Assembly (NCBI GenBank): GCA_001972305.1
Contig: BDDD01006660.1
Coordinates: 1 to 64,000 of the forward strand
Length of the DNA: 64,000 nt
Reading direction: 5' to 3'
From: Cephalotus follicularis
Lineage: Eukaryota > Streptophyta > Magnoliopsida > Oxalidales > Cephalotaceae
The position numbers and the translations under genes were made by a program. Positions 886-63,130 of the stretch are shown here, one piece after another. The notes below the pieces were generated by a model that saw nothing but the letters and a program-made list of their open reading frames with translations, was not told the origin of the DNA and did not search any database. Within the stretch, counting starts at the first letter, position 1, and each line of letters starts with the position of its first letter.

Positions 886-1096
886 AGCCGACTGATACAG
901 GACTCCAGTCGACTATCCAAAGGGTGGAAGTCAACTACACAATAGAGCCAGTCGACTGCACAAACCGAAACACAGGCAGTCGAATGTGACAGGGGTCTAG
1001 TCGACAGTGCAAGACAAAATAGCCAACTGATTTCATACACACAGTTAACTACCCAAATGAAACAGCCGACTGTTCAAGTAGGCAGTCGACTATTAT
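886..1096. repeat. Array of about ten TCGA-centred palindromes, ~21-bp spacing
   Basis: Motif centres (CAGTCGACTG or one to three changes from it) lie at about 888, 909, 931, 952, 980, 1001, 1023, 1045, 1066 and 1086. The steps are 21, 22, 21, 28, 21, 22, 22, 21 and 20 bp. Spacers between the motifs are unrelated in sequence. The array sits within the family A LTR, and the homologous array is at 50976-51085. See the cross-family finding. Confidence 0.8.
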
Positions 1097-1158
1097 GGGT
1101 GACAGAAAAGCAGACTATGACAGTTTTGTGCAATATTGCTGCCAAAACTTGGATTACT

Positions 1159-4100
1159 TGACATGCCCCGTTCCCGAGCACCCCCACCAGAGGACGACCG
1201 TGCCAGGTGGAAGGATCCCTAACCTGGATCCCTAACCAAACCCCAACAACAACAAAGGCTAACGCTAAGGACAAGGCAGGCGTTAAAACGCACTGCCAAG
1301 GAGAGCCACACACCCCAGGCCAAACGTACCCAAGGCATAGAAACAAGGAATGCCAGAGCAAGAAGGAGGAAAGAAGGAAGGGTAAAACAGCAAAAGAACC
1401 CTTACTTAAACTGTCCCCAAAACTCACCATTTAACTAAAAGAAAAACGCACCACACCCACTTAGAAAATGAACCGTTTAACTAAAGGGAACGCGCACCAC
1501 ACCTACTGCCCAAGCGCACCGTTCCGCAAATGGGAACATGCCAGGGGAGGGAGCCAGGGCAGAGAACGCAACACTACATCTTGCCTGGGGTCCCGGGCAG
1601 GGATGCCAACACAACATAACGTACCACCAACTAGGCCCGCGCCCCATTCTAAGACATGCCTTCCCCGGATGAACCATCCTCGGGCATGTACTCATTGGAC
1701 GACAACACTTAACAAAAGCTAAGCCTGGAATAAACACAAGGGCCCGGGGACAAAAGCCAAACGCATGGGACAAGCACCCGAGGTCCCACCAACACTCAAA
1801 CTACACTAAGGAGATAACATCTCACCTCGGTCAGGCACCCAGGGGATCCACCAGGGCTCACCCACCAAAACGTCTCCAAGGACCGAGCTAGTCCGAGGTC
1901 GGGAGGTTGGGAAAAACTAAGCAAAACTACTTACCACCACATAACGCCTACGACATGCCGGGAACAGCACCTGGGGACGCCACCAGACTCCAGCTTAGGG
2001 TTAACCAACCCGAGCTACGAGGTCAACCTAAGGTTTGACCAACCATGATCAAAGCCACCTTTCCCCAGGCATTTCAGCAGAGGTGCCATGCACAAAAAGA
2101 CCCAGGGAGAAACACTGAAGTTTCACCAAGGCCAGGGCTTGGGAGACCTGCTCCTCTGCCTAGGGTCAAACAACCCCCGAAACCTACGTCGTCCCTGCAC
2201 ACCCAAACACTAAGCCAAAAACAGTACCAACAACAAAGTATATAAAACTGAAGAAAAGAATTATATACACGGTCCCGGGCAAACTGCCGAGGACGCCCAA
2301 CTTCCAAGAGTTTTACACACGTTTACAAGAAGGTTTTAAAGGATATAGATATTAACAAAATATATACAAAAACCCCATGAATGTCCCCAAATGCATGCAG
2401 GTCTCCGTGGCCTTGGAGCCATCCTAAGGTGCTGTGTTCGGCGTCTGCCTCTCTCTGCAAGCTGTCCTTAGTGGATCTCAAGAACACTGCTGCCCCGATC
2501 CCTCTGCACACAAAACTGAGAGGGGATTAGTCCAACTGACTAGTGAGTAAGATCAAAGAATATCCTGGGCGACCCACTTCCACTGGGGTGCCAAGAGTCA
2601 AGGTGAACGTGCCCTGCCCCAACTGGGCCGAGGACAACCCATAACCACTGCTCAACAAAACAAGGCAGGGGTGAAAATATACAAGGATATCAATGAAAAA
2701 AAAGAAAGTCTGAGGAGACTTCAGAGCTATCAGCTCAATGACTGACCTCAAGGAAAGACGATAAACAACTGTTTATATGTCAGAACATGCCAAGGATCCA
2801 AGGGTCCACAAAAGATCAACTCTAAGGATCAACAGTTCACAAGGGGACTACTGGTACTGTATCAATCACAAGCACATTCCACACGCACACATGCACAATT
2901 GACTCACACATTTCCATAGCCGGAACCACCTCGGTAGCATAAATGACAACTCCGTTGACGTTCTATCAATGCGGTCATGGGCTACAGGATTGAACACATC
3001 CCTCATATACTCAATATAGATACCCACTTCCAGAGCACCGCATGAACATCAGTAGAAGGGCTACGCAAGCTCTCCTCCACTGGCAAATCATACGTTGGCA
3101 CACCTCAATACATGAACCTCGAACGAGGGGCTACACAAGCCCACCCCCATCGGCAATCATGAGCTCAGCACTACACCAGGTGAACCTCAATCGAGAAGCT
3201 ACCTCTTCGACAATCACATAGCGTTAGTATCGTCCAAGGAGCCCACGAATCACCGCTCAGCTCCACCCTTGAAGAGATAACAAAGGAGAACCTCGGCTCA
3301 GAGGTAAGTGTATCACCACTTAGACCATCTCGTGCCGGCAATCTCATACATAACCAAGTAACCAGTATCCAAGGACAACAACACATGATATCAAATAAAG
3401 CATGAACAATTAAACAAAAAGTGAAGCAACAAGTTAAACCCAGGCGTTGAGCCTTCAGCTCAGAAACAACAGTATTCACATGCAATATCAACAAGATAAG
3501 AGAAGAAATCCTAGTAAAAGATAATACCATGGAAGGGAATATAATCAATAACTCTCAGTTATCAATTGATAGAAAGAAGAACATCCCACTCACTAGTATC
3601 AACAGTTTTCTCAGCTAGCTTCCTTGTTGCACGGGCTCAGAGCCTAGATCTTCCTCTGTAAGACCAACACACAACAAAGCTTAGCTACCATGAACAACAT
3701 CTCTGAAGCTATGCAAGAACCACATACAACCATGAAAACCAAGGCGAAGCTCTTCTTCGGCCCCAAAGGTCGTACCTGCACCAACGATGCGATGCACCAA
3801 AAGCACTGGGGAGGACACTCACCTGCTAGAAGTGTAGACGGGTGAAAGAAAGTTCCAACCTCAAACAACGCTCAAAGCATCAGAAGAAAGATGAAGAAGA
3901 AAGATGAAAGCTCCCTCTCCCAACACTTCTTTAGGCATGAGGTGATGGACATGATATCTGCCAAAGTCAACTATCAAGCTTCATAAACAAGCTTTGCACA
4001 TATCCCAACACCAACTAAACCTCTCTTATAACTTAACCACACATAAACATTGGGCCTCCACACAGCCCACAGCCAAACAAACACTTAACCAAGAAGGAGA

Positions 4101-4183
4101 AGCCCAAACCAACACAAAGGAGAAAAAAAAATTTCCCCCTAGTCCAAACATCAATTTACCCAAAATTAATGCGGGCCATTACA
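1159..4183 (-). mobile_element. Solo LTR of a Ty3/gypsy element with intact 5-bp TSD
   Basis: Read on the minus strand it starts TGTAATGGCCCG at 4183 and ends CGGGGCATGTCA at 1159. The two ends are imperfect inverted repeats bounded by TG and CA. The 5 bp on the left (1154-1158) and on the right (4184-4188) are both TTACT, a target-site duplication. Joining the flanks restores the order seen in the family A LTR at 50500-51000, which confirms the insertion. No coding domain is visible across 3.0 kb, so this is a solo LTR, the usual product of recombination between two LTRs. TGTAATGGCCCG-type ends are familiar from plant gypsy LTRs. The body is GC-richer than its surroundings. Confidence 0.85.
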
Positions 4184-5654
4184 TTACTCAATGCTAAAAG
4201 ACTACCAACACATAAAATGACTATGTATGGCATTTAAAACGATAACACAACACTGAATTTAAGAAAGATATGTTGACAGTGATTAACTTAAGGTGAGTGA
4301 TGCACTCAAACCATGCATACCTCTTCCTAATCAATTTTCTATCAAGTTACCATTGTCATATCTTTAAACCAGATTGCACAACACATATGAGATGTCTACA
4401 GGCTTACTAACATACTCAGAACAATTGACAGAACATAGAAGGCAAAAACCAAAACCGAATTAAACTCTAGTAGCCTTTGTCACACCCCGTTTTTCCAAGT
4501 AGACAACATATAAAGCGGTAAGGCAATCAACATAAAATAATTCAGCTCAAGCGATAATATGAATAAACAAAAACCTTCAGTAGCGGAAGCAATAACATAA
4601 ATGAGCCGAATTTAAACATGCATCACACATCCAATACTACGTGATGCACAACAAGTTATAATAAAACCCAACATCATTGTCGATCGCCCAAAAACGAAGC
4701 GTGATAATACAGTACGAGATATAGAAATCCATGTTACAATAATCCAATTAACATGATCAATGTTCATTAATTCAATACAGGAAAATAAGAGAAACAACTT
4801 GGTCTTCTCCTTAGGTCTCCTTGCATGCTTCCGATCAAACCCACTCCATCAATCTGTTACAGTAGGGGTTAGCCTTTGTCCTCACTCGGCTAAGTGAATA
4901 AACTTATAAATACGGTTCGAATCATATGATAATGAGTATCATGAATGAATGCATTATGATGCAGTATGACATGTAATTTTCACAATAATTTTATCTCCGT
5001 ATATACATATAAAATTGTATGCGTGTTCACAGTACAAGTACAACCTCATAAGTTATCAACACAAGCAGTAAATATGTTCCAAAAGGAACCAGACAAACCA
5101 GTCGTCATAACCGTCGCCACCTCCTGGCCCCAACGTCATGCACTCTTACCCCATTCCCGTTTGCGATTGGTTTTGGAGCAAGTCCTCCGTATGTTGCCTA
5201 GCACGGCGGCTAAACCAACAGCAAGTTACTAGCACAGCGGCTGAGTAATCAATAGGTACAAGCATTGCATAGTACAAGTCAAGCAATAAAATATATTTAC
5301 TTGATCAAATATATTTGTTTAAAATATATTACTCCGTTCACAAGTTGTGATAAGTTATAAAACATAAAACAATGCATCTGATTTCATAATCAATCTTTTA
5401 AAACATTTCTCCGTCTTTGGAAATACTTCCCCAATCATTTCAAAAATATATATACTCATATGTTGACAAATATACATTTTCACAAAATAATGATTATAAA
5501 AATCATGCAAGCTTTTCAAAATGGTTAATACTTTTTAGAAATCAACCATAATGTAATTCACAATAATAATGCAAACATATGCTCAGAATGCATCTAGGAT
5601 CGTTTCTAGAGTCGTTTCGGGTCTAACGGGTCCCATTCGAGTAAAATTCCATTA

Positions 5655-5795
5655 AACAGGGGGATAGGCGTCGATGTCTATCCATAAGGCATCGACGTCT
5701 TTACCCTAAGGCGTCGATCCTATGTACAGATATTCCCAGACGTTTTTTGGATAAAAGACGTCGATGTCTTTCTAAAGACATCGATGTCTTTATGA
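5655..5795. repeat. TCGA palindrome group 1 in the Tekay LTR
   Basis: Centres are at 5671, 5692, 5714, 5761 and 5781. The one at 5774-5791 is a perfect 18-bp palindrome, AAAGACATCGATGTCTTT. Its neighbour at 5754-5771 differs by a single base pair. Spacing is 20-22 bp within sub-groups. Confidence 0.8.
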
Positions 5796-6007
5796 TACCA
5801 GAATGTATCAGTTCGTGAGTCTGGATTCTAGAGGGAAGAATCCAGCCCCTAAATCCTCAAATAATCGAAGCTTAACCTCTTAAGGCGTAAGAAAAGCTAC
5901 TGGTTAACAGAGTATATAACCAGAACGTCAATTCGTACACAAACATGTAATCCCAAGTGGCTAAATTACCATCAGCAATAAACATTATAGTTCTATGATT
6001 ACCCAGA

Positions 6008-6096
6008 AAAGGCGTCGATGCTTTTACTCAAACATCGATGTCTTTTTCATACGAACGCGAAGACATCGACGTCTTCACGTAGACGTCGACGTTTAT
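6008..6096. repeat. TCGA palindrome group 2 in the Tekay LTR
   Basis: Centres are at 6015, 6035, 6066 and 6086, forming two pairs of 20 bp. Arms are of the GACATCGATGTC/GACGTCGACGTC type. Confidence 0.8.
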
Positions 6097-6844
6097 CCAA
6101 CCCAGAACGTTTTCTCCATATTATTAACACAGCAGGCCATCATCAAAATCATCCATACATAAACCAATTCAAATACTCATGTAATTTGCACATGCATGTT
6201 TACTCCGTACATGACATTAGTCATCACAACAAGTCCAGAATCACAATTCAACCATTAACATGCAATTCATCATGTTATCCACTAACTTAAAACCCAAAAT
6301 GCATGTATAAGATCATCAATTTCCCCTACCTTGTTGTTCCAAGTTAGGAACTGGAAAGTCCAACCATTTAAGTTCCCAGGTTCTAGCCACAGCAGCTCCA
6401 AGATCCTCTCAGTAACTGCCACCCACGAACTCCAAGTTCTAGCTCCAATCAAGCTCAACAATGGTGGCACTTACACTCACTGGTTTTCTTTTCTTTCTTT
6501 CCTTTAGTGTTTTAAATGAGAGAGAGAGATGAAGGAGGAGGTGTTTTACTATGGCAGGAACCCTCTCCTTTTCTCTTTGCTTCACAGATAAGCACACCCT
6601 CACGTGCTCACCTTCTTCACTCTCTAGTTTTGGCTCATTTCCCTTCTCCTTTCTGCAGGTTGCAGGTGAAGATGGTATATTCTATTGCATGCACCAGGTG
6701 AGAGGCACGTTTTGAGCATGCCTGGAAACACACCAGCATGATCAACACGTCGCATTGTGCATGTTAAGGCGTCTGGATAATGCCTCAAAGATCCCCCATT
6801 GCATGTTACTCTGTTAGTGTATAACGTGACAGATGTTCTTTACA

Positions 6845-6999
6845 AAGGCATCGACGTCTTTCCTTAGACGTCAATGTCTTTTCCTTTTTCACCAGAAGGT
6901 GTCGATGCCTTCTCTCTATATCGACGTGCATGCCCATGCATTCACGTGTACCTCGGTTCCCATAGGCGTCGACGTCTTTCTAAAGACATCGACGCGTTT
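6845..6999. repeat. TCGA palindrome group 3 in the Tekay LTR
   Basis: Centres are at 6851, 6902, 6921, 6969 and 6989, with a degenerate site near 6871. Pair spacing is 19-20 bp. Confidence 0.75.
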
Positions 7000-7168
7000 C
7001 CTCCAAAACTGCGCCGTTTCAAGTTTAACTCACATGTTTCTTTCCCTAATCAATATTTAGGGTTTGGAGACATCTTTTGAGTTTGAAATTTCAACATTCT
7101 CATTAATTCAAGTTTAAGATTACATCTCAAAACGAAATATTACAATTAGGAAAATACCGGGTGTTACA

Positions 7169-8337: not shown

Positions 8338-10142
8338 TGTAACACCCCCGATTCGGAACCGGGATCACTCCTGATTCCGGATCGGTGTGTCACACAAAAC
8401 TGAACTAAAAACATGTCAAAGATCTTAATCTTAATCATCATCAATACGTGGTGGTTCTAAAAATCTGAAAACATGAATAATCATGAAACATAAACTGAAT
8501 CTGAAAACTTTGTCATAAATCAAGAATCACAATACTGTTTAGATAACTAGCCTATACACGACCATAACACTACTAAGAACATAACCAGGTCAAACTCCTA
8601 GATGATCCTCTGACATAGGGAAACTCTCTCATCACACTTGCCCATGCTGTCCCTGAAAACCTGCCGCATGGAAAACAAAAACGCGGCTGAGCAAACTTCA
8701 GTACGGATATAGAATCATAAAACAGTTTACGAACAGTTTATGAAACAAATCAGTTACGAAACAACATAAATACGAATCAAAATAGAACAGTTTACGAAAC
8801 AAAACAGAACAGTTACGAATCATAACATATCCGTTATGAATCATAACAGAACGAAACAAAACTGTATCCGAAATAAAACAGTTTACCAAAACGAAACAGA
8901 ATCCGAAACAAAACAATATCATGCTCAATACAGTATCTGAAACAAACACAATACGTTACAAAATATTTTACGAAACGAAACACTTTACGAAACAGAATAG
9001 GACATTTTGCGGAATAAAAGAAAACTGTTTCTGAACAGTACTAAACAAACAGATTTCGAAACAAAATAAAACATTAATCGATAAAGATAATTTAAAAGCA
9101 GTAAGATTTCAAAAGTTAACTCCAAACAGAAATCTTAAGCAATAAATTAGTTTAAACATTCTTTGAAGTCACATATGAACTTTCATAAAAACCAAATCCA
9201 TAACTTTCAAAACATATATGAAAGCTTTCAAAACATAAGTTCCATAACTTTCAAAACATACACGAAAGCTTTCAAAACTTAAGTTCCATACTTTGAAAAC
9301 ATAAAGCATACCTTTCCCAAAACACAGGTTCCATAACTGAGCACCAAAACACATAACATATCAGAAACACATAGTAGCAAGGGAGTAGCTAATTCCATAT
9401 TGCCAAATAGAATTGTAGTGTACGGCACTACACATACAATTCCCATATCCCAAAACATATCCCAATACCATATAACTAGGATCGATCCATACGCCCCTAT
9501 CACAAATCCTATCCAAGGATATCACAGAGAGACGTCGTAAACTAATCACATCGTTACGGAAAGTGTCATGCCCCCGTGCCAGGCTCACAGCATGCCTATG
9601 GTAGCCCCATAGGTGGTTAAAAAGCTCAGTATATCACCATTTTAAAAACTATGATTTCATCAAATCATTTAAAACACATAGAAAAGTTTCTCAAAACATA
9701 ATCATAAATCGTTCTCAAACGATATAATCACATGCTTTCATAATCGAAAAATCAACTCATTTAATTTCACAATAAGGAGATGATTGCATAACATTTCGTA
9801 AACACATCATAACTGATTTCATAAAGTCATAATATTTACCTCATAAAATATCAAACGACTTTATTTTCAAAATCCAAATATACGAAATTCAAAAACAAAA
9901 GGGAAATATTCGTAAAACCGAATGATAACAAAACCAGAATCTGTATTTAATCTCAAAACAGAATCGAAACAGTAAGAGTGTGTCAAGGAACGAAAAACCC
10001 GTACTTCCTTTACTAAACAAAACCGAATGATAACCAAAACGAAGAATTCTTATTTTTAAAACGCGAACTAAATTTATTAAAACCCAAACAGCAGATGATA
10101 ATCCAAGACGAAGAAATCCATACTTTTTTTTAACATATTCCA
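8338..10142 (-). mobile_element. Partial gypsy LTR related to families A and B
   Basis: On the minus strand this ends ...CGGGGGTGTTACA at 8338. Its body matches the family A LTR (51300-52440) and B LTR (53340-54000) in order, including the block for 'catgcggaaggt' and a 'gtgccgtacac' block. The inner edge cuts the Tekay integrase, and the flanking 5 bp there are CTCTG. The far part is missing from 10143 onward, where element E begins. There is no coding sequence. It is an older copy, judging by many differences from the A copy. Confidence 0.7.
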
Positions 10143-10681
10143 TGTAGCGACCCCGACCCGAGCTCGCTAATAGCTCAAAGCGAACTCCAAGATCGGTTGC
10201 GCTACGTTGGGTGTGAAACGTTACATCCTTAGGTACTTTTTTTTTATTTTATAAAAAGTACACAACATCATAAACTTATATCTCGCAACATCATACATAA
10301 CCTTAAATCCAAACTTTATACATAATCATCTTACATGAAGATATCTTAACCATCTGACACATATAACTTCAATGCGTCGACGTTCAAAATTAGGAGATCG
10401 ACTCTCACCTAAAGCATCGACGCTTTAAGTGTAACTCTCGGCGCTTTAGACAGTTTTCTTCTCATCACTTAGCTAAAAAAAAAATTTCTTCTCGGGGCGC
10501 TGCCCCCTGAACCCCCGCCCGCTGTCCGGGCAGCGGGACCCCCCGTCCGCTCACCGGGGAGCGACACCCCCGTACTCCCCGAGCGTAGGGTCATACTACG
10601 GGTCCCTTAAACTATCTGCCAATTACACAATAGCAATCATATTCCATAAATAATATCTTACATGGAATTTGGGTCATCACA
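10143..10681 (-). repeat. 3' LTR of element E
   Basis: Minus-strand start TGTGATGACCC at 10681 after the purine tract; minus-strand end ...GGGGTCGCTACA at 10143. Length is 539 bp, shorter than the partner LTR. It holds TCGA-type motifs centred at 10377, 10398, 10417 and 10438 (steps 21, 19, 21) and a GC-rich hairpin block. Confidence 0.65.
10491..10583. repeat. GC-rich inverted-repeat block in the E LTR
   Basis: The outer arms CTCGGGG (10491-10497) and CCCCGAG (10577-10583) can pair. Inside, CCCGCTG and CAGCGGG (10518-10537) form a 7-bp perfect stem with a 6-base loop. The block is strikingly GC-rich within AT-rich sequence. Blocks like 'ggggcgctgcccc' occur in other plant LTRs, and their role is unknown to me. 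Confidence 0.6.
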
Positions 10682-17658: not shown

Positions 17659-17849
17659 TGTGACGACCCGAAATCACTTTGGTATTGTTCATGCATACAT
17701 TGTACCGTATTGTACTGTATCAGACCGTATTGTATTGTATTGAATTGAGGTATTCCTATACCTATTGATATTGTATTGGTTATATGCATGTATAGTCGGG
17801 ATTCTAGGCTGAGTTTCAAAGAGTTTATCGAATTAACTATATAAGTCAA

Positions 17850-17935
17850 TTTCTCACTCTCATCCTCTCATTCTTTCATTCTTCACCCTCTCTCTATCTT
17901 TCTCCCTCTTTCTCTCTTGCTGGCAGCCTCCCTCC
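17850..17935 (+). repeat. CT-rich tract in the D LTR
   Basis: Nearly pure pyrimidine sequence (ctctct/tttct runs) about 190 bp inside the LTR, conserved in the second LTR at about 24487-24575. Such tracts often lie near plant transcription starts, but no TATA box is clear here, so a promoter role is only a guess. Confidence 0.5.
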
Positions 17936-18375
17936 ATCTGCCTAGAAGCCGGATTTGCATCTTCTTCAACAAGGATACTGATTGCAAGTTGTGGGTTACC
18001 GATTGAACAAGAAAGTAGCGGGTTATTGGGAGATTTCTACCGATTGATAGATTGGAAAATCAACTTTTGAAGCTTCAGTGATAGGTAGGACTTCTTACCG
18101 AATTGCCTACTGCTTGTATTGAGTGATTGAATTGAATTAATTGAATTGAATGATTGAATTGAGTGCATTGAATGAATTGGGGTTTTAGGGTTTTTAGCAA
18201 ATCCTTGACCTAATTGTTAATAGAAAGATTGAAATGTTAAATTGAAGGTTGTAACTAGTTTTACTAACCTTAAAGATTGATTTTAACCCTTGATTTCTTA
18301 AAGAATGGGTTTTAATTGGATTTTGGCTTGAAAATTGCTGGTTTTCTGCAGAAAAATTGACCATTCCCAGCAAAG

Positions 18376-18665
18376 CATCGATCCCCTTGCCCATAGACAT
18401 CGATGTCTTTCGCTTTGGGATGCAACCTCCTTGATTTCGCATCAAAGACATCGACGTCTTTGACATAAGATGTCCTTTCCCAGAAAAGGGCATCGACGCG
18501 ATACATCAATACGTATTCCCAGGCCATTTTTATTGAAACACGTCGATATCTTTGTCCAAGGACATCGACGTCTTCAGCCAACTGAGAAAGACATCGACGT
18601 CCTTCTACCGTTTTTAAAGGCATGCCCTGATACGCATCGATGTCTTTGGCCAAGGACATGGACGC
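18376..18665. repeat. TCGA palindrome array in the D LTR (copy 1)
   Basis: Centres are near 18378, 18400, 18451, 18493, 18543, 18565, 18594 and 18637, with arms of the GACATCGACGTC type. Pairs are 22 bp apart. The array is conserved in the partner LTR at about 25014-25320. Confidence 0.75.
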
Positions 18666-18932
18666 ATTTTGGGCTGAGTGGAGTTTTTAAATGTTAAAGC
18701 TGGTTTTTCAACCCTTTTCACATTGTCGCTTGATCGGAGCCTCACTTGAGGTATTCAAGCGTTTAAAACACAGTTTTCAATGGTTTTCAAAGATCGAATT
18801 GATAGATTGATAGAGTGACAGCTTGAGCCATAGGTTACGACCTACTGACTTTCATTGACCAAATAGATGTTCATTCCTATTCCGTCGATTCGATTATCAC
18901 CGCATAGCAGTTATTGATTGATTGATTGTTGC

Positions 18933-36918: not shown

Positions 36919-37037
36919 TGTTGGCTTTTAGTCTAAATCCTAAGTTTAAATGATTACAAATTTGTATTTAACTTTGATGCTTAATGTGCAAGATATTACA
37001 AAGCTTCACATAAGGCAAAATATCAACTGCAAGCAAA

Positions 37038-37190: not shown

Positions 37191-37195
37191 ATACA

Positions 37196-48189: not shown

Positions 48190-48495
48190 TATGTCTATCA
48201 CTTTACAAGAATCCTTTTAAAGGTGACTCTACAATCCTTGTCACATAATTGACATATGCTCAAGAGATTGTGTTTGAGTCCATCAACAAATAGAACATTA
48301 TGAATAGAGGTTTTATTGTTACCTATGGAGCCAAATCCTTTGATCTTTCCTTTTGCATTGTCTCCAAATGTTACATCTCCTCCTTTCTTTGATTCGAATT
48401 TGATAAAGAGACTTTTGTTGCCCGTCATATGTTTGGAGCACCCACTATCCAAGTACCATTGTGTCTTCTTGGATAGTGCCTTCAAACACACCTAC
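48190..48495 (-). pseudogene. Copia protease
   Basis: 'WYLDSGCSKHMTGNKSLF' is the copia aspartic protease signature. 'GGDVTFGDNAKGKIKGFGSI' and 'IHNVLFVDGLKHNLLSICQLCDK' follow. It sits between gag and integrase. Confidence 0.9.
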
Positions 48496-48506
48496 AAACA
48501 CAAATT

Positions 48507-49852
48507 TCAAATTTTTGTTTGAGGTACCCAACAAACTTTGGGTCCTTTGGGGTTAATTACAATGGTTCCTTTGGGAACCCAACTCTTCCTTATTCTAGTG
48601 AAATTTGAATCATTCATTATATTTTCTTTGTAAAAACAAGAAGTAGAGATATGACCATTCTTACCACAATTATTGCAAGATATAAACATTCTTCTTTTAT
48701 ACATAATATGTCTTTTATAAAAGCATGATGAAGATGTATGACCGTTTTTACCACAATGGTCACACGAAGCATTTATCTTTTTCTTGTATATAGAATTTTT
48801 CTTATGATAGCATGATGAAGATGTATGTCCATGTTTGCCACAAAAATTACAAGAGTTATTCATATTTTTCTTAAACATGGCATTCTTCTTATGAAAGCAG
48901 GTGAAAGATGTATGACCATTCTTACCACAATAGTCACAAGAAATCTTTACACTTTTTTTCTTAATATGAGCTTTTTCAACCTTCTCTTTTTCTATCCTCT
49001 CTTTCCTTTCAAAGAAGTTTGGATAAAGCTTCACATTGTTCATCTCCTCATATCCTAGCCCGACCTTATCAAAAACACATCTTTGCATACCGAGAAGATT
49101 TTCATGTTTTTGAGTACTATTAGAAAACTTTGAGAAAGTTTTCTTTAATGCGTTTATTTCTTCCTTAAGGTTTCTATTTTCCTTCTCTAAATATGCTACT
49201 TCATTTTCTAGGAGATCTACTTCAATTTCGTTTGAGTTATCTTCCTTAGCCAAATTAATTGATTTAAGTTCCTCATTTGCATTTACTAAAGTCTTGACCT
49301 TTTTCTTTAAAGATGCAATCATAGAAATATATTTTTCTACGACTAAGACAAGTTCATCATAGGTTACCTCATCGCTTTCTTCCTCTTATTCTCCCTCCAA
49401 GGCCATCAAAGTTATTTGAGACACTTCTTCATCTGAATCTTCATCCGAGATAGACTCATCAATATCATCCCATGTGGCAATCATAGCTTTATTCTTCTTC
49501 TTCAAGAGATCCTTCTTTTTGAGTCGGGGGCAATCACTTTTGTAATACCCCGGTTTGTTGCACTCGAAGCAAACGATCTCTTCTAGCTTGCTTGACTCTC
49601 CCTTTTGGTAGATTTTCTTGTTTGGCTTTCCACCAAACTTCTTCTTGCTACCTAGGAATTTTTTGAACTTTCGTGTGATGAGGGCTAGCTCTTCATTTTC
49701 ATCATCGTCCTCAGAGTCTTCGATTAGGTACGATTTCAATGCAACTATCTTCTTTTTCTTTTTCTCCTTCTCCTCATCATCATCTTTATTTTGCATTGAA
49801 AGTTCATGGGTCATTAGTGACCCGAGAAGATCTTCTAATGGAAGGATGTTGA
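48507..49852 (-). pseudogene. Copia gag with four 29-residue zinc-knuckle repeats
   Basis: The gag end 'ILPLEDLLGSLMTHELSM' is followed by a charged Lys/Glu/Asp region and one knuckle 'CFECNKPGYYKSDCP'. A coiled-coil-like segment comes next (about 70 residues with ENEVAYLEKENRNLKEEI), then four CX2CX4HX4C knuckles. In the 271-residue block the first cysteines fall at residues 129, 158, 187 and 216, exactly 29 apart. The linkers are basic (HKKN..KKK). The knuckles likely bind RNA. A near-identical copy is at 37266-38573. The N-terminal gag part is missing because the A LTR begins there. Confidence 0.9.
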
Positions 49853-52457
49853 TGTAATACCCTGTTTGCCTGTACGCATTTTTACGGGTTTTATTTGTTT
49901 CGTTTAGTAGTTGTCCACTTTATTTTGGGTTTATATTTTGGGGCTGACTGATACCAGCCTTGGATTTGGGCATGTTAGTATGAGTAGTTTGTTTTGGTAA
50001 AATTTAAGTCATTTTATTTTATTTTCCTCTTTTTGCAAACAAATTTTATACAATGCATAATTATAAACCTTTTAAAACAAATTAATTAAAATTACTAATT
50101 CTTTTAATTTTCTTAAATTTTCTTATCTTTTTCTCCTCCCTCCCTTATCTCTCCTGTCTCTTTCTCCCTCTCAATATTTCCCTCCCGTAATCCTCTCCCT
50201 CTTTCCTTTTTCTCTCCCTGAAAATCTACACATCTTCCTTATCTAAACTAATTTGGTTTCCTTTTCCTATCCTTTCCGTTTTGGCTTCCTCTTTGCTATT
50301 TATGTAAGACAATGCCAATGTGTCAGCCATCTTTTCCCGAGTATAGCTGCTGCCGAACCTGCCTATGTCATTGGGGCTTTGTTTTCTATAATTCTTGCTA
50401 CATCAATAAGGTTAGTCTCTTCAAGGTTAAATTCAGGAAGTGTTTTATTTATATTTGAATGGCATTGTCAAAACTTTGAGGGTGTGTTTTCTTTCCTTTG
50501 ATTCTGTCAACAGTTGTGTTCTTTTTCAGTTAGTGTCACCATTGTAGGTTAGTTTGTTGCCTTAATGTGATGGTTATGCTATTAGTTTTACCAAGAATTC
50601 GTTTTGGCATGTATGGGTTGCTAGAGATAGTTTTGTTTTGGTTTCTACATTCTTGAATTCCTGTCAAATAAATCATGAGGTGATAGCAATCTGTAGACAC
50701 CTAGGGAGTATTGTATAATCTGGTTTTGATGCATGTGATCATGATAAGTGGACAGAATTGGAGCTATGCATTTGTATGTCATGGTTTATGTTTTCTGTCA
50801 CCTTAAATAAATTGCTGTCAATATGTCTCAGTCAAAATTCAGTGTTATAACATCGTTTTACATACCATACAAAGTTGTTTCTGATGTTGGTAATCTGTTG
50901 GTGTTGAGAAATCTGAGTTTTGGCATCTAGATTGCACAAAACTGCACAAAACTGCTGTTCTGTCACCCAGAACAGTCGGCTGCCCATATGAACAGGCGGC
51001 TGTTTTGTGTTGTGTAATCAACTGGACCTGTTGTGTAGTCAACTGCCACCCCTTTGACAGTCGACTACAGTCATGAAACAGTCAGATGGTTTGTCCTGTA
51101 ACTTTCTATTTTCATCCGTTTGCTCTTCCAATGAATCCAGGACTGTTTTAAACATCATTATGATTCTATTTTATGCCCAAAATAAATTTTAGACCCTTAT
51201 TTGAATATTGTTATGTTGTATAGATTATTGTGCCACGTGAGGCTAATAGATTTATCGGATATTCGTAAGTTACTCTGTGATCGCAAAAAGGTACGGATAT
51301 TCTACTCTTTGCTACTCCCTTCAATTTTAGCGAAATAAAATCAGTTTTGGACATCTAAATTATTTGAAATGAATTCAGTTTTATGAATATGTTTCCTTTG
51401 GTTTTATGAACTAAGTATATTTGCTATGCTTCAAAATAAAGTCAGTTTGATATTTTACGAAAACGATTATATTTTCTGGCTTTATAAATTCAGTTGTGAT
51501 ATGTCTCTTTATTGTGAAAATAAAAGAGTTGCCTTTTGATTATGAAAGTATGCGTTATGTCAAACTCTATCGTTGAGAACGATTTATGATTATGTTTTGG
51601 GAAACCCTTCTATGTGTTTTAATTGATTTTGATGAAATCAAAGTTTTTGAAATGGTGAAATACTGAGTTTTGTACCCACCTATGGGGTGTACCATAGGCA
51701 TCCTGTGGGCCTGGCAAGGGGGAATGACACTTTCCGTAACGGTGTGATTAGTTTACGGTGGCTCTTTGTGATATCCTTGGATAGGATTTGTGATAGAGGC
51801 GTATGGATCGATCCTAGTTATACGATTTGGGATATGTTATGACATGGGAATTGTATGCGTAGTGCCGTACACTGCAATTATATTTGGCAATGTGGATGTC
51901 GCGAATCCCTTGCTACGATGTGTTTCTGATATGTTATATGCTCAGTATGGAACCTATGTTTTTGGAAAGGTATGCTTTATGTTTTCAAAGCTATGAATTT
52001 GGTTTATATGTTTTGCTGTGTGCGTTTACAAAGTATGTTTAAACTATTTTCTTGCTTAAGATTTCTGTTTTAAAGTACTTTTGAAATCTTCTTGCTTTAA
52101 AATATCGTTTACTGTTTTATATTCTATATTCGTACTGAGGTTTGTTCAGTAGCGTTTTCTTTCCATGCGGAAGGTTATCAGGAGCGACGGGGCAATGTGT
52201 GACGAGAGTGACTCCCTTATGTATGAGGGTCATCTAGGAGCTGATCCCTTCGTGTTTATGTGGTCATAGTGGAACCTGTTTAATGAACAATATGTTAATT
52301 TCAGTTCATGACTTTTGGTTATGAATAAGTTTCAATATGTTATTAGATATGTTTTAAACCACCACGTACTTAATAAAGATGAACTTTCTAGTATGTTTAG
52401 TTATGTTAAGTTTCTGTTATATGCACTGTAGTGGCTCCCACAGCTCGGGGGTGTACA
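49853..52457 (+). repeat. 5' LTR of element A
   Basis: Starts TGTAATACCCTG and ends GGGGGTGTACA, 2.6 kb. Its first 407 bp occur again at 38612-39018. Its middle part matches the minus-strand pieces at 369-4477 and 8338-10142. It carries a TCGA palindrome array. It begins with an AT-rich stretch and then a CT-rich tract near 50135-50220. Confidence 0.9.
50973..51088. repeat. TCGA-type palindrome array in the A LTR
   Basis: Centres are near 50976, 50996, 51018, 51039, 51061 and 51082, with steps of 20-22 bp. Several sites are degenerate (CAGTCGGCTG, CAATCAACTG), but the phase is kept. Confidence 0.75.
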
Positions 52458-52462
52458 GTTTA

Positions 52463-52626: not shown

Positions 52627-53083
52627 ATGGTACGTACAAGAAACACTCCTCGGAGAACTGCACCAGCTGGGGCTCAGAATGAAGTCAGAAATGAGCCTTC
52701 TGTGGAAGTGCTGGTTTGTCAGGCAGTTGCTCAGGAAGTGAATCGTGTAATGCAACAACAATATCGGGAACAAGTGGTTGAAGAGAATGCTCCGACAGAG
52801 TTTCAGGTGGTTATAGGAACTGGGGATAGGCATGACACACCTGCTTATGTTTGGCCGGAGCGGTTTCAAAAACAGAGGCCGCAGTCTTTCAGTTCGGCTG
52901 TGACACCTGTGGAAGCTGAACACTGGATAGAACACATGGAGAAGATCTTTAGTGTACTGAGGTGTGATGATAAGCAGAAGGTAAGGTTGGTGGCTTGCAA
53001 ACTCAAATGAGATGCCAAGAAGTGGTGGAATACTCTGAATTTGACTAAGGGAGGAGGTTATGCAGATGCACTGTTATGGTCTG
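52627..53083 (+). pseudogene. Element A gag, N-terminal part
   Basis: Begins MVRTRNTPRRTAPAGAQNE and includes 'QAVAQEVNRVMQQQ' and 'WPERFQKQRPQSFSSAVTPVEAEHWIEHMEKIF'. It aligns with family B gag along its length. The chromovirus gag core starts where the B array interrupts it. Confidence 0.85.
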
Positions 53084-54429
53084 TGTAACACCCACGATGG
53101 TGGGAGCCCTTACAGGAAATAATACCAAACTGAAACATAACGGAATACCTAAACAAAGACTGATGCGAAACAGATGTGGTGGTATGAAACATAACATATA
53201 ACAAAACCGATGTTTAACAAAGTCTAAAAAAAAACTTAACAATACATAAGTAAAAGCAAACCATAATCCGATATCCAAATACTGTTTAAGAGGAAACTAG
53301 TCTGATATTAACTAAAAATATGAGCAACACTACTGAAAACAAAATGGATCAACTCCTAGCTGATCCTCTGACAAATGGGTAACTCTCATCACACGTTTCC
53401 CCCATCCTTCCGGAAACCTTCCGCATAGAAACAAAAACGCGGCTGAGAAAACCTCAGTACGGATAAGGAAGTAAAACAGTAAACGGTGAACAAATGATTG
53501 GAACTTTAAATTTAGCAAAGTAACATAATAAATATTCTTCAAGATGTAAAGCAAAATATTTGAAAATGAGCAGTTATAAAATCGTCATAACTTTACGAAA
53601 AACATATTTTCATAATTCAAAACTTTATCTGATTTCATAATTCCATAACAGAGAATTCTGACATACATACATATATAGGTGCAAGGGTTCGCGAGGCCCA
53701 CATGCTCTGACGGAAAAGTCATGTACGGCACTACACAAACAGTCCCAAATGCTGAATTTCTGAATTCTGACAATAACTAGAGTATACTCATGTCCTCCAT
53801 GCCAAAGAACATGCCTATGATACCTCATAGGTAGGGTTTTTCTCTGTATGTTATTATGCTAAAAATTCATTTTATTCTAAAACAATTCTTAAACATACTT
53901 ATGTAAACTGTCTCCAGACATATCTGAAATTATTTAAAGAGGATCATACTTTCATATCAAAAATCAAAATCAAAATCCGATCTGTATCTGAAGTATAACA
54001 TACTCCCTAAAGTGGAAGCCATGTCCAAACAATAACACATTTTCGATAACAGAAAATATGTATATTAAAAATTAATATCCGATGTAACGATAATAAATTC
54101 GTTTCAGTAATATTATTACCAAAATGAGGATATTCAATCAAAATATGAATTTTATTCCGATTAAAACACGGAGCATAATCATAGAAGCATAAATCCGTTC
54201 AAGAACGATGTATCAGTAAAAAATAACTTTGTTTAATTTAACCAAAGGAATATCCAAGAATCGAAGAATCCATACATTAGCAGGTTGAAAATCTAAGAAA
54301 TCTAGAATACCGGACAAAAGCACCCTAGAAGTGTCCTAAACTCCACCACGAATGATATTAAGACCTAAACACATGAGTCCAAACATCACATAACATAAAA
54401 AGTAGCAATTATCAAAACTGCCAGAGAAA

Positions 54430-54557
54430 GCGTCGACAGTTTGTTCCTAGGCGTCGACGGTTTCATTGCACAAAAGGACAAAGCGTAGAGTAAAGAGTCG
54501 ACTGACCACAGCACAAAACAATACAAAGCGGCGACGCTCAAGGAATTAAGCGTCGTG
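54430..54557. repeat. TCGA palindrome group 1 in the B LTR
   Basis: Centres are near 54433, 54454, 54498, 54531 and 54553, mostly paired at 21-22 bp. Arms are of the AGCGTCGACGCT type. Confidence 0.65.
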
Positions 54558-54832
54558 GTTTACGTCGAATACAGAATACCAGTTGCAGAAAACAGTTTCA
54601 ATTTCATGAACAACTCAGATTTTTCATATACAGAAGTTATAGTAGCAATAAACAGACTTAAAAAACATGTCATATGAGTCTGTAACTAGCAGTATGGTGA
54701 TTATAAATGCACAATCATGAAAATAACAAGTTTAGCATAGCATTTTCATGTCAAAACATGGTTTTAAAATAGTTTACAAAATCATGAACTATAATCTGAT
54801 TTTTTTTCCTGTGAATAATCCGTAAAACAGTG

Positions 54833-54853
54833 ATATATATATATATATATATA
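54833..54853. repeat. (AT)10 microsatellite
   Basis: Pure alternating AT run inside the B LTR, absent from the partner LTR. Confidence 0.95.
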
Positions 54854-55332
54854 CACGTACATACGTCAATAACATGATTTCTTGTTTTTAAGCATCAATA
54901 TTACAAATTATGCATAAAACCCATGAACATATAAAGATAACAGCAGAAATTTAGTTTCAAGAGGCTTCTAAAATCATGCTCACGATTAAATTCTAGCCTG
55001 TTTCAATACGAATTAATGGGTGGTATAGAAACTACATAGTACAAGCTACAACTTTCGTTTAGAATTTACCTACAAAAGACGTCAAAATCGGTGTAGAAAA
55101 ATGCTTGCAAAGTTGCTGTTCGTGTTTGTCAAAATGTGCAGATAGTTTTCTTTCAACATAATACTTAGATTTTTAAAACCAGAAAAAAGAGTAAAATTAA
55201 TGGTAAAATCGTGCAACTAATAAGTTTCCTTTCATGCAGATTCAGTTTTGAACAAAGAAGGAAAATCATATCAACAAAAATGGCAAAAACCCCTTTTTTC
55301 CTTAAACATGTCACCGTCCAAACTGGTATGGA

Positions 55333-55475
55333 AAGCCGACTAAAGCGTCGACTATTTACTTAAAGCGTCGACAGTTAAGAACATAAATACAAAACGCGTC
55401 GATGTTACACGTTTATGCGTCAACGTGTCACACAACACCCAAAGCGTCGGCGGTTCAAAATAGAGCGTCGGCGCT
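55333..55475. repeat. TCGA palindrome group 2 in the B LTR
   Basis: Centres are at 55348, 55368, 55399, 55420, 55447 and 55468: three pairs 20-21 bp apart. The pairing resembles the 48-bp double unit of the F LTR. Confidence 0.75.
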
Positions 55476-55599
55476 TTGTGCCCAGAAAACAAAAATAAAA
55501 GAATTTCAAACTAAAAATCAAAGCGTTCACAAACCATAGCATACATAAAAAGATATAAACCCAACATAAAACATGTAAGCATAGAAACGGGATATTACA

Positions 55600-55935: not shown

Positions 55936-57660
55936 AGCTAACCGGTAAGCAACCGCTCCAATCTTTTCCAGAAATTAAAATGGCCCGATAAACCATAGAC
56001 TCAACTTTCCCTTCAGCCCAAACCTTCGAACTCCTTTCCATGGTGAAACTTTTAGAAACACGTGTTCACCAACTCTAAACTCCAATTCCCTCCGATGTTT
56101 ATCTACATAACTCTTATGTCGGGATTGAGGGACTTTCAGTCTTTCCCTAGCTACAGTCACTTTTTCAGTAGTGATCTGAACTAGCTCAGGTCCTTCGATA
56201 GCTCTCTCTCCAACCTCATCCCAACATGTCGGAGATCGACATTTTCTCCCATACAGTGCCTCAAATGGAGCCATCCGAATGCTAGCATGCCAACTATTAT
56301 TATATGCGAACTCCACCAAGCTCAAATATTCATCCCGGTTTCCAGCCCACTCTAATGCACAAGACCTCAGCATGTCCTCTAAAGTCTGGATGGTCCTCTC
56401 CGACTGTCCATCTGTCTGTGGGTGAAAAGTTGTACTGTAATTGAGCCGTGTTCCCCAAGCTTTTTTGAATCCCTTCCAAAATCTAGACGTGAAACGAGGA
56501 TCCCTATCCGAAACAATGGAACAGGTGTCCCATGTAGTCTCACAATCTCTTGCTGGAAAACTACCGCAAACCGATCTACAGAAAAGTTCTCCCGGATAGC
56601 CAAGAAATGTGCCGATTTAGTCAAACGATCCACCACTACCCAGATGGTATCATTTCTCTTGAACGTCCTTGGCAATCCTGTAACAAAGTCCATTGCTATG
56701 CTCTCCCATTTCCAAACTGGAACCTCCAAGGGCTGTAACAAACCACCGGCTCGTTGGTGCTCAATCTTAACCTGCTGATAGATCAAACACCTCCCAACAT
56801 AATCTGCTACATCCCTCTTCATTCCATTCCACAAGAAATTCCGCTTCATGTCCCCATACATTTTTGTAGAACCTGGATGTATAGAGAATGGAGAACTGTG
56901 CGCCTCTGACAAAACAACGTCTCTAATAGTAGTATCTGCCGGCACACACAACCGACTACCCAACCAGATCACTCCATGTTCATCCACACGGAACTCTAAC
57001 TGTTTACCATCATCAACATTCTGGATTAACACCCATAGTTCACCATCATCACTCTGAGCCGCCTTAATCCGAGATATAAGGGTAGGCTCTATACTCATAC
57101 AAGCCATATAACCTCCAGAACCCCGAACAAACAAATTCAATTCCAAACTCTCCATATCTGCTATCAACTGCGGCTGTGTAAACAAAGCTGCTACACTTCC
57201 AGAACTCTTTCTACTCAAGGCATCAGCTACCACATTTGCTTTACCGGGGTGGTACTGAATATTCAGGTCATAGTCCTTCAGCTACCCAGATGGTATCATT
57301 TCTCTTGAACGTCCTTGGCAATCTTGTAACAAAGTCCATTGCTATGCTCTCCCATTTCCAAACTGGAACCTCCAAGGACTGTAACAAACCACTGGCTCGT
57401 TGGTGCTCAATCTTAACCTGCTGACAGATCAAACACCTCCCAACATACTCTGCTACATCCCTCTTCATTCCATTCCACCAGAAATTCCGCTTCAAGTCCC
57501 TATAAATTTTTGTAGAACCTGGATGCATAAAGAACGGAGAATTGTGCGCCTCTGACAAAACAACGTCTCTTATAGTAGTATCTGTCGGCACACACAACCG
57601 ACTACCCAACCAGATCACTCCATGTTCATCCACACGGAATTCTGACTGTTTACCATCATC
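55936..57660 (-). pseudogene. Family B integrase region (with direct repeat)
   Basis: Zinc segment 'HPGSTKMYGDMKRNFLWNGMKRDVADYVGRC', core start '[37 protein letters not shown]', then '[41 protein letters not shown]' and '[18 protein letters not shown]'. A direct repeat of about 646 bp covers the RNase H end and the integrase start; its copies differ by about 4%, so it is older than those in F. Confidence 0.88.
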
Positions 57661-57927
57661 AACATTCTGGATTAATGCCCATAGTTCACCATCATCACTC
57701 TAATCCGCCTTAATCTGAGATATAAGGGTAGGCTTTATACTCATACAAGCCATATAACCTCCAGAACCCCGAACAAACAAATTCAAATCCAAACGCTCCA
57801 AATCTGCTATCAACTATGGCTGTGTAAACAACGCTGCTACACTTCCAGAACTCTTTCTACTCAAGGCATCAGCTACCACATTTGCTTTACCGGGGTGGTA
57901 CTGAATATTCAGGTCATAGTCCTTCAG
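56636..57927 (-). repeat. Tandem direct repeat (~646 bp) in B pol
   Basis: Two adjacent units at a constant offset of 646 bp, with perhaps 25 differences by eye. Confidence 0.85.
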
Positions 57928-60782: not shown

Positions 60783-60975
60783 AAACTAGTTCGGTCCTCT
60801 AAGGGGTGTTCCATGTTCGTGCAATCTACGCAACAAAACCAGGACAAGATAAAGGCAAAAGAATCAAAGTATCAAAACGAAACGACACATCAAAAGATCA
60901 TAACGAAGAAGTCCTAACCCGGTGTCTACCCAATCTCACAGGTCAAACCTAGTTAGGTCTTCTAAGGAAACAAAA

Positions 60976-60993
60976 CCTATATCTCTGATACCA
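60976..60993 (-). other. Primer-binding site of B
   Basis: Minus-strand TGGTATCAGAGATATAGG, a few bases after the 5' LTR end (60999). It is of tRNA-Met type with the ATAGG extension shared with element A. Confidence 0.85.
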
Positions 60994-60998
60994 CAATC

Positions 60999-63130
60999 TG
61001 TAACACCCTTGATGGTGGGAGCCCTTACAGGTAATAATACCAAACTGAAACATAACGGAATACCTAAACAAAAGACTGATGCAAAATGGATGTGGTGGTC
61101 TGAAACATAACTTATAACAAAACCGATGTTTAACAAAGTCTAAAAAAAAACTTAACAATACATAAGTAAAAGCAAACCATAATCCGATATCCAAATACTG
61201 TTTAAGAGGAAACTAGTCTAATATTAACTAAAAATATGAGCAACACTACTGAAAACACAATGGATCAACTCCTAGCTGATCCTCTGACAAGTGGGTAACT
61301 CTCATCACACGTTTCCCCCATCCTTCTGGAAACCTGCCACATAGAAACAAAAATGCGGCTGAGCAAACCTCAGTACGGATAAGGAAGTAAAAAAGTAAAC
61401 GGTGAACAAATAATTGGAACTTTAAATTTAGCAAAGTAACATAATAAATATTCTTCAAGATGTAAAGCAGAATATTTGAAAATTAGCAGTTATAAAAACG
61501 TCATAACTTTACGAAAAAAATATTATCATAATTCAAAACTTTATCTGATTTCATAATTCCATAACAGAGAATTCTGACATACATACATATATTGGTGCAA
61601 GGGGTTCGCGAGGCCCACATGCTCTGATGGAAAAATCGTGTACGGCACTACACAAACAGTCCAAAATACTGAATTTCTGAATTCTAACAATAACTAGAGT
61701 ATACTCATACGCCTCAAAAGGATCCATATCCAACTCTCAGGATACATATTTAAAAGAGACGCCGTAGACCGATCACACCGCCACAGTAGGTGTCATGTCC
61801 TCCGTGCCAAAGAACATGCCCATGATACCTCAGAGGTAGGGTTTCTCTCTGTATGTTATTACGCTAAAACTTTATTTTATTCTAAAACAATTCTAAAACA
61901 TACTTATGTAAACTGTCTCCAGACATATTTGAAATTATTTAAAGAGGATCATACTTTCATATCAAAAATCAAAATCAAAATCCGATCTGTATCTGAAGTA
62001 TAACATACTCCCTAAAGTGGAAGCCATGTCCAAACAATAACACATTTTCGATAATAGAAAATATTTTTATTAAAAATTAAAATCCGATGTAACGATAATA
62101 AATTCTTTTCATTAATATTATTACCAAAATGAGGATATTCAATCAAAATATGAATTTTATTCCGATTAAAACCAGGAGCATAATCATAAAAGCATAAATC
62201 CGTTCAAGAATGATGTATAAGTAAAAATTAACTTTGTTTAATTTAACCGAAGGAATAGCCAAGAATCAAAGAATCCATACCTTAGCAGGTCGAAAATCTA
62301 AGAAATCTAGAATATCGGACAAAAGCACCCTAGAAGTGTCCTAAACTCCACCACGAATGATATTAAGACCTAAACACATGAGTCCAAACATCACATAACA
62401 TAAAAAGTAGCAATTATCGTAAGCATCAATATTACAAATTATGCATAAAACCCATGAACATATAAAGATAACAGCAGAAATTTAGTTTCAACAGGCTTCT
62501 AAAATCATGCTCACGATTAAATTCTAGCCTGTTTCAATACGAATTAATGGGTGGTATAGAAACTACATAGTACAAGCTACAACTTTCGTTTAGAATTTAC
62601 CTTCAAAAGACGTCAAAATCGGTGTAGAGAAATGCTTGCAAAGTTGTTGTTCATGTTTGTCAAAATGTGCAGATAGTTTTCTTTCAAAATAATACTTAGA
62701 TTTTTAAAACCAGAAAAACGAGTAAAATTAATGGTAAAATCGTGCAACTAATAATTTTCCTTTCATGCAGATTCAGTTTCCAACAAAGAAGGAAAATCAT
62801 ATCAACAAAAATGGCAAAAACCCCTTTTTTCCTTAAACATGTCACTGTCCAAACGGGTATGGAAAGCCGACTAAAGCGTCGACTGTTTACTTAAAGCGTC
62901 GATAGTTAAGCACTTAAATACAAAACGCATCGATGTCACACGTTTAAGCATCAACGTGTCACACAACACCCAAAGCGTCGGCGGTTCTAAATAGAGCGTC
63001 GGCACATTGTGCCCAGAAAACAAAAATAAAAGAATTTCAAACTCAAAATCAAAGCGTTCACAAACCATAGCATACATAAAAAGGTATAAACCCAACATAA
63101 AACATGTAAACATAGAAACGGGATATTACA
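60999..63130 (-). repeat. Middle B LTR (5' LTR of the complete unit)
   Basis: Minus-strand start TGTAATATCCCG at 63130; end AGGGTGTTACA at 60999. Length is 2.13 kb. A TCGA palindrome group lies at about 62868-63005, homologous to the one at 55333-55475. The purine tract of a further B unit adjoins its start, so it is shared between two units. Confidence 0.9.
62868..63008. repeat. TCGA palindrome group in the middle B LTR
   Basis: Same pairs as at 55333-55475, with a few drifted sites. The phasing is retained. Confidence 0.7.

Follow-up and report, generated by a model that had tools for sequence, protein, structure and literature searches.

Results

TCGA-centred palindromes are clustered in LTRs

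The first 64,000 nucleotides of contig BDDD01006660.1 (GenBank assembly GCA_001972305.1) of Cephalotus follicularis, hereafter the window, are filled with nested long terminal repeat (LTR) retrotransposons, whose families were sorted by self-comparison. Several of their LTRs carry clusters of short palindromic units, or dyads, centred on TCGA. A preliminary description of the window had reported such arrays in gypsy and copia LTRs of at least six families, with helically phased steps, and had proposed a common selective cause for them.

The arrays are real and above chance. Within the intervals first reported (4305 bp), which hold 67 of the 210 TCGA sites of the window, these sites are 6.5 times denser than elsewhere (15.6 versus 2.40 per kb), and their flanks are more symmetric, with a mean arm match of 3.67 of 7 pairs compared with 1.89 outside. 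At least five of seven arm pairs were found at 26 of the 210 sites (Markov-2 mean 3.4, maximum 12), and at least four at 50 sites, 37 inside arrays and 13 scattered. Gaps of 19-22 bp between TCGA sites were tenfold enriched (25 observed, 2.5 under the null). The palindromic flanks of TCGA are exceptional among the 16 palindromic tetramers. Among the 16 cores of the form NCGN it is the only one to stand out, with a mean arm match of 2.46 and 26 sites of at least 5/7; the other cores reach at most 1.97 and at most 5 sites. Perfect palindromes of at least 10 bp are as numerous around TATA (18) and ATAT (18) as around TCGA (17, of which 12 lie within the reported regions) or slightly more so, and as a share of each core TCGA ranks highest (8.1%, versus 6.0% for TATA and 4.1% for ATAT). 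Flank symmetry, density, spacing and the core comparison rule out chance as the origin of the arrays. Symmetry and clustering were as first described, and perfection was not, since most units are imperfect palindromes. The TCGA density and arm-match counts, the TCGA-only spacing, the arms-only scan and the core comparison are free of by-eye choice of units, and all of them except the spacing count second LTR copies as well; the unit lists behind the class, symmetry, spacing and mismatch tests include degenerate units chosen by eye.

Three related dyads share one core

The units fall into three classes: class I, AAAGACRTCGAYGTCTTT, in families C and D and in a 268-bp fragment; class II, CAGTCGACTG, in A and F; and class III, AAAGCGTCGACGCTTT, in B, E and a Sirevirus LTR. 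The chromovirus-like gypsy element B and the Sirevirus thus carry the class III word in common in their LTRs. Consensus scans gave 39, 36 and 27 matches for classes I, II and III, against 8.6, 18.6 and 0.8 expected from five Markov-1 samples, a site being able to count in two classes; across the whole window, only isolated matches lay outside the arrays. When the arms alone were scanned and the core ignored, TCGA occupied the centre of 49 of 82 array matches (with the second A, B and D copies counted), compared with 1/247, 1/193 and 11/261 matches outside for classes I, II and III, where "outside" for one class includes the arrays of the others. The second commonest array core was CCGA/TCGG (10 of 82), and the deamination products TTGA/TCAA numbered 3. 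At positions minus and plus 3 of the 29 class I units the letters were A-C in 14, A-T in 7, G-T in 6 and G-C in 2, so that the outer CpGs vary and the central CG is mostly kept, a retention that partly reflects the finding of these units largely by TCGA.

With CCGA second only to TCGA among the cores, we considered a CBF/DREB reading, since YCGAC resembles the dehydration-responsive element (DRE) core. Single-domain AP2 proteins bind as monomers, and the CBF/DREB reading therefore stays a lead only.

Carrier elements and their arrays

Pfam searches covered 40 open reading frame (ORF) pieces (a few twice) of the 145 ORFs of at least 80 aa. From the coding domains adjoining their LTRs, B, C, D and F are classed as gypsy, chromovirus-like elements. 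The B coding region has gag, RVP_2, RVT_1, H2C2 and SH3_Tf2-1 domains, with a Chromo match of 20.9 bits that lies below the cutoff of 25.1; F has gag, RVP_2, RVT_1 and H2C2; D has RVT_1, H2C2 and an SH3 match below cutoff; and an SH3_Tf2-1 ORF adjoins the C LTR. All four being chromovirus-like, their coding regions are related, and the pol pieces compared are about 64-71% alike in DNA by self-comparison.

Counting degenerate units, the C LTR is the richest, with 15 units. It lies on the minus strand at 4600-7168, starts with TGTAACACCCGG at 7168 (4600 being the limit of the stretch read, not the LTR end), and carries an upstream block of six class I units at 6843-6999 and downstream blocks of nine (5672-5782 and 6016-6087) within 5663-6096. 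The F LTR (12 units) occupies 27840-30459 on the plus strand, with an approximate 5' boundary, and is followed by a Met-type primer-binding site (PBS, identified by eye) and gag. Its two class II arrays lie on either side of a TATAAA near 28270: F1 upstream (27882-28009), with six units alternating at 21 and 27 bp, and F2 downstream (29054-29166), with six units at 20-21 bp. Element D, on the plus strand, has an LTR-internal-LTR structure with duplicated segments of 4.8 kb that are 94.6% identical by self-comparison. Its first LTR (17659-20213, TGTGACGACCCG...GTTACA, then a Met-type PBS by eye) has a TATATAA about 180 bp in, and its nine class I units (18370-18668, plus strand) begin about 540 bp downstream of this TATA-like box. 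The array in the second copy (25014-25323, plus strand) is not independent and contains an additional unit at a 19-bp step (25231/25250). Element B, on the minus strand, likewise has an LTR-internal-LTR structure (duplicated segments 95.5-96.1% identical by self-comparison), and its first LTR (53083-55599, TGTAATATCCCG...GTTACA) holds 10 class III units, four in a downstream block at 54425-54540 and five or six in an upstream block at 55341-55478, both on the minus strand. The second B copy repeats only the array at 62871-63008 (minus strand, not independent), the downstream block falling in a stretch that this copy lacks.

Family A is represented by LTR pieces only, at about 378-1158, 8566-9923 and 50907-52250 by self-comparison. 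Array A1 (880-1095, presumably on the minus strand) has 10 class II units at steps of 20-22 bp plus one of 28; for three of these units (932, 1024 and 1046, each with 3/10 mismatches) the spacing guided the placement, after which each was moved by up to 2 bp to where it matched best, and an eleventh candidate with 6/10 mismatches was dropped. A diverged copy, A3 (50972-51088, plus strand), has six units. Nested in an A-type LTR is the 536-bp E LTR (10144-10679, minus strand, TGATGACCC...GTCGCTACA, boundaries by eye), with three class III-like units at 10369-10426 on the minus strand. A stretch of about 155 bp with 78-79% identity is common to A-type and B LTRs (8566-8726, 53326-53480 and 61242-61394), and these LTR families are thus partly related.

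The LTR first described as minus-strand copia (26868-27591, distal end by eye) has three AGGGGGAG polypurine tract (PPT) copies at 27706, 27687 and 27600, the terminal one followed by AT and TG, a structure that identifies it as a Sirevirus LTR; no coding region of the element is in place. Its array (27112-27470, minus strand) comprises seven irregularly spaced class III units, four with TCGA, a further TCGA at 27421 not being counted as a unit. The supposed plus-strand copia LTR, in turn, is only a 268-bp unclassified fragment (36928-37195), lying between a copia reverse transcriptase remnant and a duplicated gag piece; it carries five class I units at 37035-37194 (plus strand) with steps of 22, 49, 22 and 48 bp. 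Carriers include both gypsy and copia LTRs, as first described. The repeat listings of D, B and A are copies from the same LTR families as the first ones, and the four families C, D, F and B have related coding regions, each being chromovirus-like. The reported lack of arrays in a Tat LTR agrees with the absence of clustered consensus matches from 37.2 to 50.9 kb, where a Tat-like element lies, the Tat LTR itself not having been delimited.

Adjacent units often lie about two helical turns apart

With the second D and B copies dropped, 20 of the 45 steps between TCGA-bearing units measured 19-22 bp; the null gave a mean of 3.2 and a maximum of 11 in 5000 samples. When degenerate units were added (58 steps, the gap at 5782-6016 in array C not being counted as one), 36 steps fell at 19-22 bp, 8 at 27-33, 11 at 40-51 and 3 were longer, with none shorter than 19; the absence of steps of 23-26 bp depends on a dropped B unit near 55425, whose inclusion adds steps of 24 and 25 bp and which was left out of this count and of the masked-array comparison below. 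For class II, 16 of 19 steps were 20-22 bp and none was shorter (null mean 2.0, maximum 9 of 20000; three spacing-guided units included), and class II words being only 10 bp long, packing does not force a 21-bp step. For class I, 13 of 24 steps fell at 19-22 bp, compared with 5.7 under a close-packing null (P = 0.0001). These counts rule out packing as the sole cause of the 21-bp step.

The helical phasing first claimed did not extend beyond neighbouring units. Longer steps had no significant 10.5-bp phase, either for TCGA-only units (P = 0.15) or with degenerate units (P = 0.14), and steps of 27-33 and 40-51 bp recur. The count of TCGA palindromes and the 10.5-bp periodicity test against a null, which the preliminary description had proposed genome-wide, were run within the window with a divided outcome, TCGA being enriched and the longer steps lacking significant phase. 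Enrichment of adjacent steps at 19-22 bp together with the lack of phase in longer ones supports a two-turn adjacent step and leaves a general helical grid unsupported. The binding on one DNA face that had been suggested retains only the adjacent step as its basis. The alternation of 21 and 27 bp in F1 and of 22 and 49 bp in the fragment reads as pairs of sites.

Symmetry belongs to the class consensus

It had also been claimed that both arms change together. Over all 71 units, the arm match was 0.539 compared with 0.399 after free shuffling (z = 7.5), and no excess was found over shuffling within classes (0.531, z = 0.6, P = 0.30) or within families (0.526, z = 1.0, P = 0.18). The claim therefore holds between motif classes and fails within classes and within families; class I alone was borderline (P = 0.076) and class II went in the opposite direction. 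Symmetry belongs to the class consensus, and in single units the two halves decay separately, as is expected of independent half-sites. Mismatches gave no sign of a sense-strand G-U preference, with 29 G-T versus 41 A-C in 67 of the 71 units (omitting the unit at 27338, three B units and class I positions plus and minus 3) and 52 versus 79 over all positions. Class I mismatches leaned toward A-C over G-T, 21 to 6, which half-site recognition alone does not explain. RNA folding of ten array stretches (the Sirevirus, E and downstream B arrays not among them) gave z scores of -1.6 to -6.9 relative to shuffles, below -3 in 6 of 10. The absence of both single-unit compensation and a sense G-U preference favours half-sites read on DNA over sense-RNA pairing, and rules out the latter as the maintained property.

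Relatedness, CpG content and position of the arrays

When the dyads were masked and 12 arrays compared, only A1 and A3 aligned at E values up to 0.05, which agrees with the unrelated spacers first reported insofar as different families are concerned. Within arrays, spacers are not always unrelated: pairwise identity exceeded that of shuffled sequence in F2 (0.47 versus 0.28) and A1 (0.34 versus 0.27), where a trace of tandem duplication is kept, with no clear trace in F1 (0.36 versus 0.26, standard deviation 0.07) or A3 (0.22 versus 0.23). Without masking, stretches of 12-19 bp are common to arrays of different families. One of 18 bp, identical (100%) in the Sirevirus and B arrays, departs from the class consensus, a hint of exchange. 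Copies within a family differ by whole units, A3 lacking a 92-bp block of four units that A1 has, and D2 differing from D1 by one unit of 19 bp. Divergence at motif, array spacer and remaining positions was 0.062, 0.080 and 0.048 between the D copies and 0.078, 0.080 and 0.026 between the B copies. Array sites are thus not better conserved than the rest, which rules out selection visible between LTR copies; any selection acted on element lineages and not on these insertions. The observed/expected CpG ratio, the only measure used, was higher in arrays (0.84-2.06) than in the rest (0.34-1.19) of all 6 LTRs compared, A and the fragment standing outside this test.

Distances of TCGA from the LTR start, which are good to a few bases, were 176-314 and 1079-1494 bp in C, 197-248 and 1031-1163 in B, 260-300 in E and about 130-473 in the Sirevirus LTR. 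TATA-like sites, here plain matches to TATAWA and not mapped promoters, lie downstream of the F1 and E arrays, and the Sirevirus LTR has no TATAWA match. In D, the sole array (720-979) lies downstream of the box at 180. Like the second block that each of C, B and F carries, it may lie in the transcribed leader. By eye, the C, D and F LTRs (4600-7168, 17659-20213 and 27840-30459) have GT-like and CAG-like junctions downstream of their TATA-like boxes, which could mark an intron in the leader, spanning the downstream arrays.

Other features of the window

The pol region of F contains two near-perfect adjacent duplications, at 32099-33802 (852 bp, 99.4%) and 34725-36453 (865 bp, 99.8%), which reflect either real recombination or an assembly artefact, and that of B contains an adjacent duplication of 646 bp at 56636-57927 (95.5%). 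A copia gag segment of 1.82 kb occurs twice (37196-39018 and 48437-50260, 99.5%), flanking the Tat-like element, and its ORF has an 87-bp tandem repeat near a CCHC zinc knuckle (37371-37723 and 48612-48964), each unit of which seems, by eye, to encode a knuckle.

Relation to known LTR repeats

The closest known feature is the Sirevirus "repeated motif" (RM), a palindrome present in 8-32 copies per element in the upper half of the LTR and associated with CpG islands, which begins 200-400 bp into the LTR and extends over 300-500 bp (Bousios et al. 2010, PMC2829016). The arrays of the window are similarly palindromic and clustered and, in the 6 LTRs compared, CpG-rich relative to the rest of the LTR; one of them sits in a Sirevirus LTR, recognized by the published signature of several AGGGGGAG PPTs with the terminal copy followed by AT/TG (PMC2829016). 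At about 130-475 bp into the LTR, the TCGA sites of the upstream blocks in C, B, E and the Sirevirus LTR lie near the published position. Beside the published minimum of 8 copies per element, unit numbers per LTR, with degenerate units counted, are 15 in C, 12 in F, 10 in A and in B, 9 in D, 7 in the Sirevirus LTR, 5 in the fragment and 3 in E. However, a CGG-CCG core is present in 12 of 13 published RM elements, with Tnd-1 as the exception, and just two of the 13 published words, Vitis CGGTCGACCG and Tnd-1 ACAATCGATTGT, are centred on TCGA (PMC2829016), whereas the core of the window arrays is YCGAR (TCGA in 49 and CCGA/TCGG in 10 of 82 matches). The RM was reported as Sirevirus-specific relative to other Ty1/copia elements (PMC2829016), whereas the window arrays lie mostly in LTRs that are gypsy chromovirus-like or, for A, E and the fragment, unclassified, gypsy-type coding domains adjoining those of B, C, D and F. 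For these two reasons, the core and the carriers, we do not file the arrays as RMs. Their measured adjacent steps near 21 bp also set them apart, as do the downstream blocks of several LTRs, none being described for the RM in the portion of PMC2829016 consulted. By analogy, the window arrays look as if they work like RMs.

Other published repeats are more distant. Palindrome clusters in the regulatory region of maize Sirevirus LTRs are reported as small-RNA hotspots (PMC10760457, PMC5311732); the maize word CACCGGACNNNGTCCGGTG has no match in the window at up to 3 mismatches. LTRs of the gypsy Del lineage have plastic, length-variable 5' CpG islands, absent from eudicot Del elements (Cruz et al. 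2014, PMC4029996), and resemble the window LTRs in their CpG-rich, length-variable 5' part, but palindromes are not mentioned in the accessible text. At Arabidopsis siren loci, REM proteins and GDE1 bind repeats and recruit RNA-directed methylation, at least double repeats being required for robust recruitment (PMC12270911). These are also repeated words at fixed spacing, read by plant DNA-binding proteins; unlike the window dyads, they are direct 10-bp repeats with a 1-nt spacer and are not palindromic, and their motif TTTTGCTTATNTTTTGCTTAT has no match in the window at up to 3 mismatches.

No palindromic arrays in gypsy or chromovirus LTRs are announced among the open-access papers listed in the literature searches; term searches of the available text of PMC11656987, PMC12016029, PMC12537502 and PMC6911290, the last of which concerns palindromes at insertion sites, gave none for gypsy LTRs, and by titles and abstract openings none of the papers containing one of five motif words concerned LTRs. 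A scan of viral contigs with a 15-bp motif matched at least 120 stretches, 78 of 80 among the matches listed being single matches, and these we take as chance; a two-unit motif pattern matched 8 stretches. Relatives of the reverse transcriptases were confirmed in neither viral contigs (4 stretches) nor prokaryote genomes (217 stretches). As far as these searches show, what is new is that gypsy chromovirus-like LTRs carry RM-like arrays and share a word with a Sirevirus next to them; the arrays are a known kind of feature extended to new carriers.

Discussion

The reading that we favour, with moderate confidence, is that the arrays are cis-regulatory and consist of repeated putative sites for one or more dimeric host DNA-binding proteins that need a central CG. 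One host protein, or a few related ones, would recognize as a dimer a dyad whose centre is YCGAR, TCGA being best, and whose arms are class-specific. Neighbouring dimers would tend to sit about 21 bp, or two turns, apart and could therefore contact each other, and different elements would keep or regain the arrays because these would raise LTR transcription. The common selective cause and dimeric protein first suggested thus receive partial support, fitting the three related dyads, the single core, the symmetry of the consensus, the central CG, the unrelated spacers and the word common to B and the Sirevirus LTR. Several results weigh against this proposal, namely the equal or poorer conservation of array sites between the D and B copies, the lack of significant phase in longer steps, the irregular Sirevirus spacing, the position of the only D array beyond its TATA-like box, the presence of a second block in C, in B and in F, and the excess of A-C mismatches in class I. 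A bolder version, which we hold only tentatively, is that a single regulatory word, YCGAR dyads about two turns apart, is shared by different retrotransposon superfamilies of one plant genome or was reached by them through convergence, and that one family of dimeric host proteins would read it as a common LTR switch, the arm classes matching the paralogues of that family.

The arrays could instead be targets of silencing, either because the palindromes fold as hairpins once transcribed and serve as a source of small RNAs, or because a bound host factor recruits RNA-directed methylation. Stable folding of the array stretches, the small-RNA hotspots of maize Sireviruses and the need for at least double repeats at siren sites all fit this view, which extends the small-RNA alternative of the preliminary description, as does the class I mismatch bias, since A-C mismatches in the sense strand remain pairable by antisense RNA. 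Yet arms do not compensate within classes, sense G-U pairs are not preferred overall, and both the REM/GDE1 motif and the maize palindrome are absent at the stringency used; moreover, being a target would by itself bring an element no benefit for which to maintain an array, and we regard silencing as an unlikely explanation. The same absence of compensation and of a G-U preference tells against palindromes acting in dimerisation or packaging of element RNA, a role that RNA palindromes have in retroviruses and yeast Ty1. In its favour, the D array and the downstream blocks in C, B and F are perhaps transcribed, since they start 0.7-1.5 kb inside the LTR or past a TATA-like box. The remaining blocks, however, occupy upstream LTR positions, and we give this role very little credence.

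A further possibility is that LTRs acquired a repeat of common ancestry from one another, through recombination or template switching, and that it then lengthened as units duplicated; on this view the shared words would reflect descent and have little present function. Whole-unit differences between family copies, the duplication traces in F2 and A1 spacers, the 18-bp stretch off consensus in the Sirevirus and B arrays, and the lack of better conservation at array sites all point in this direction. Nevertheless, families have no homology outside the dyads and have kept the word, three arm classes around one core would need selection or a very old exchange, and drift should lose the central CG first, whereas TTGA/TCAA make up only 3 of the 82 cores. 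Exchange and slippage with little function also seem unlikely.

If gypsy chromovirus-like and Sirevirus elements do share a word in comparable arrays, a host factor common to both superfamilies becomes testable. The question of what reads LTR palindromes would then be approachable with defined probes, in the form of core, arm and spacing variants of the repeat of about 21 bp.

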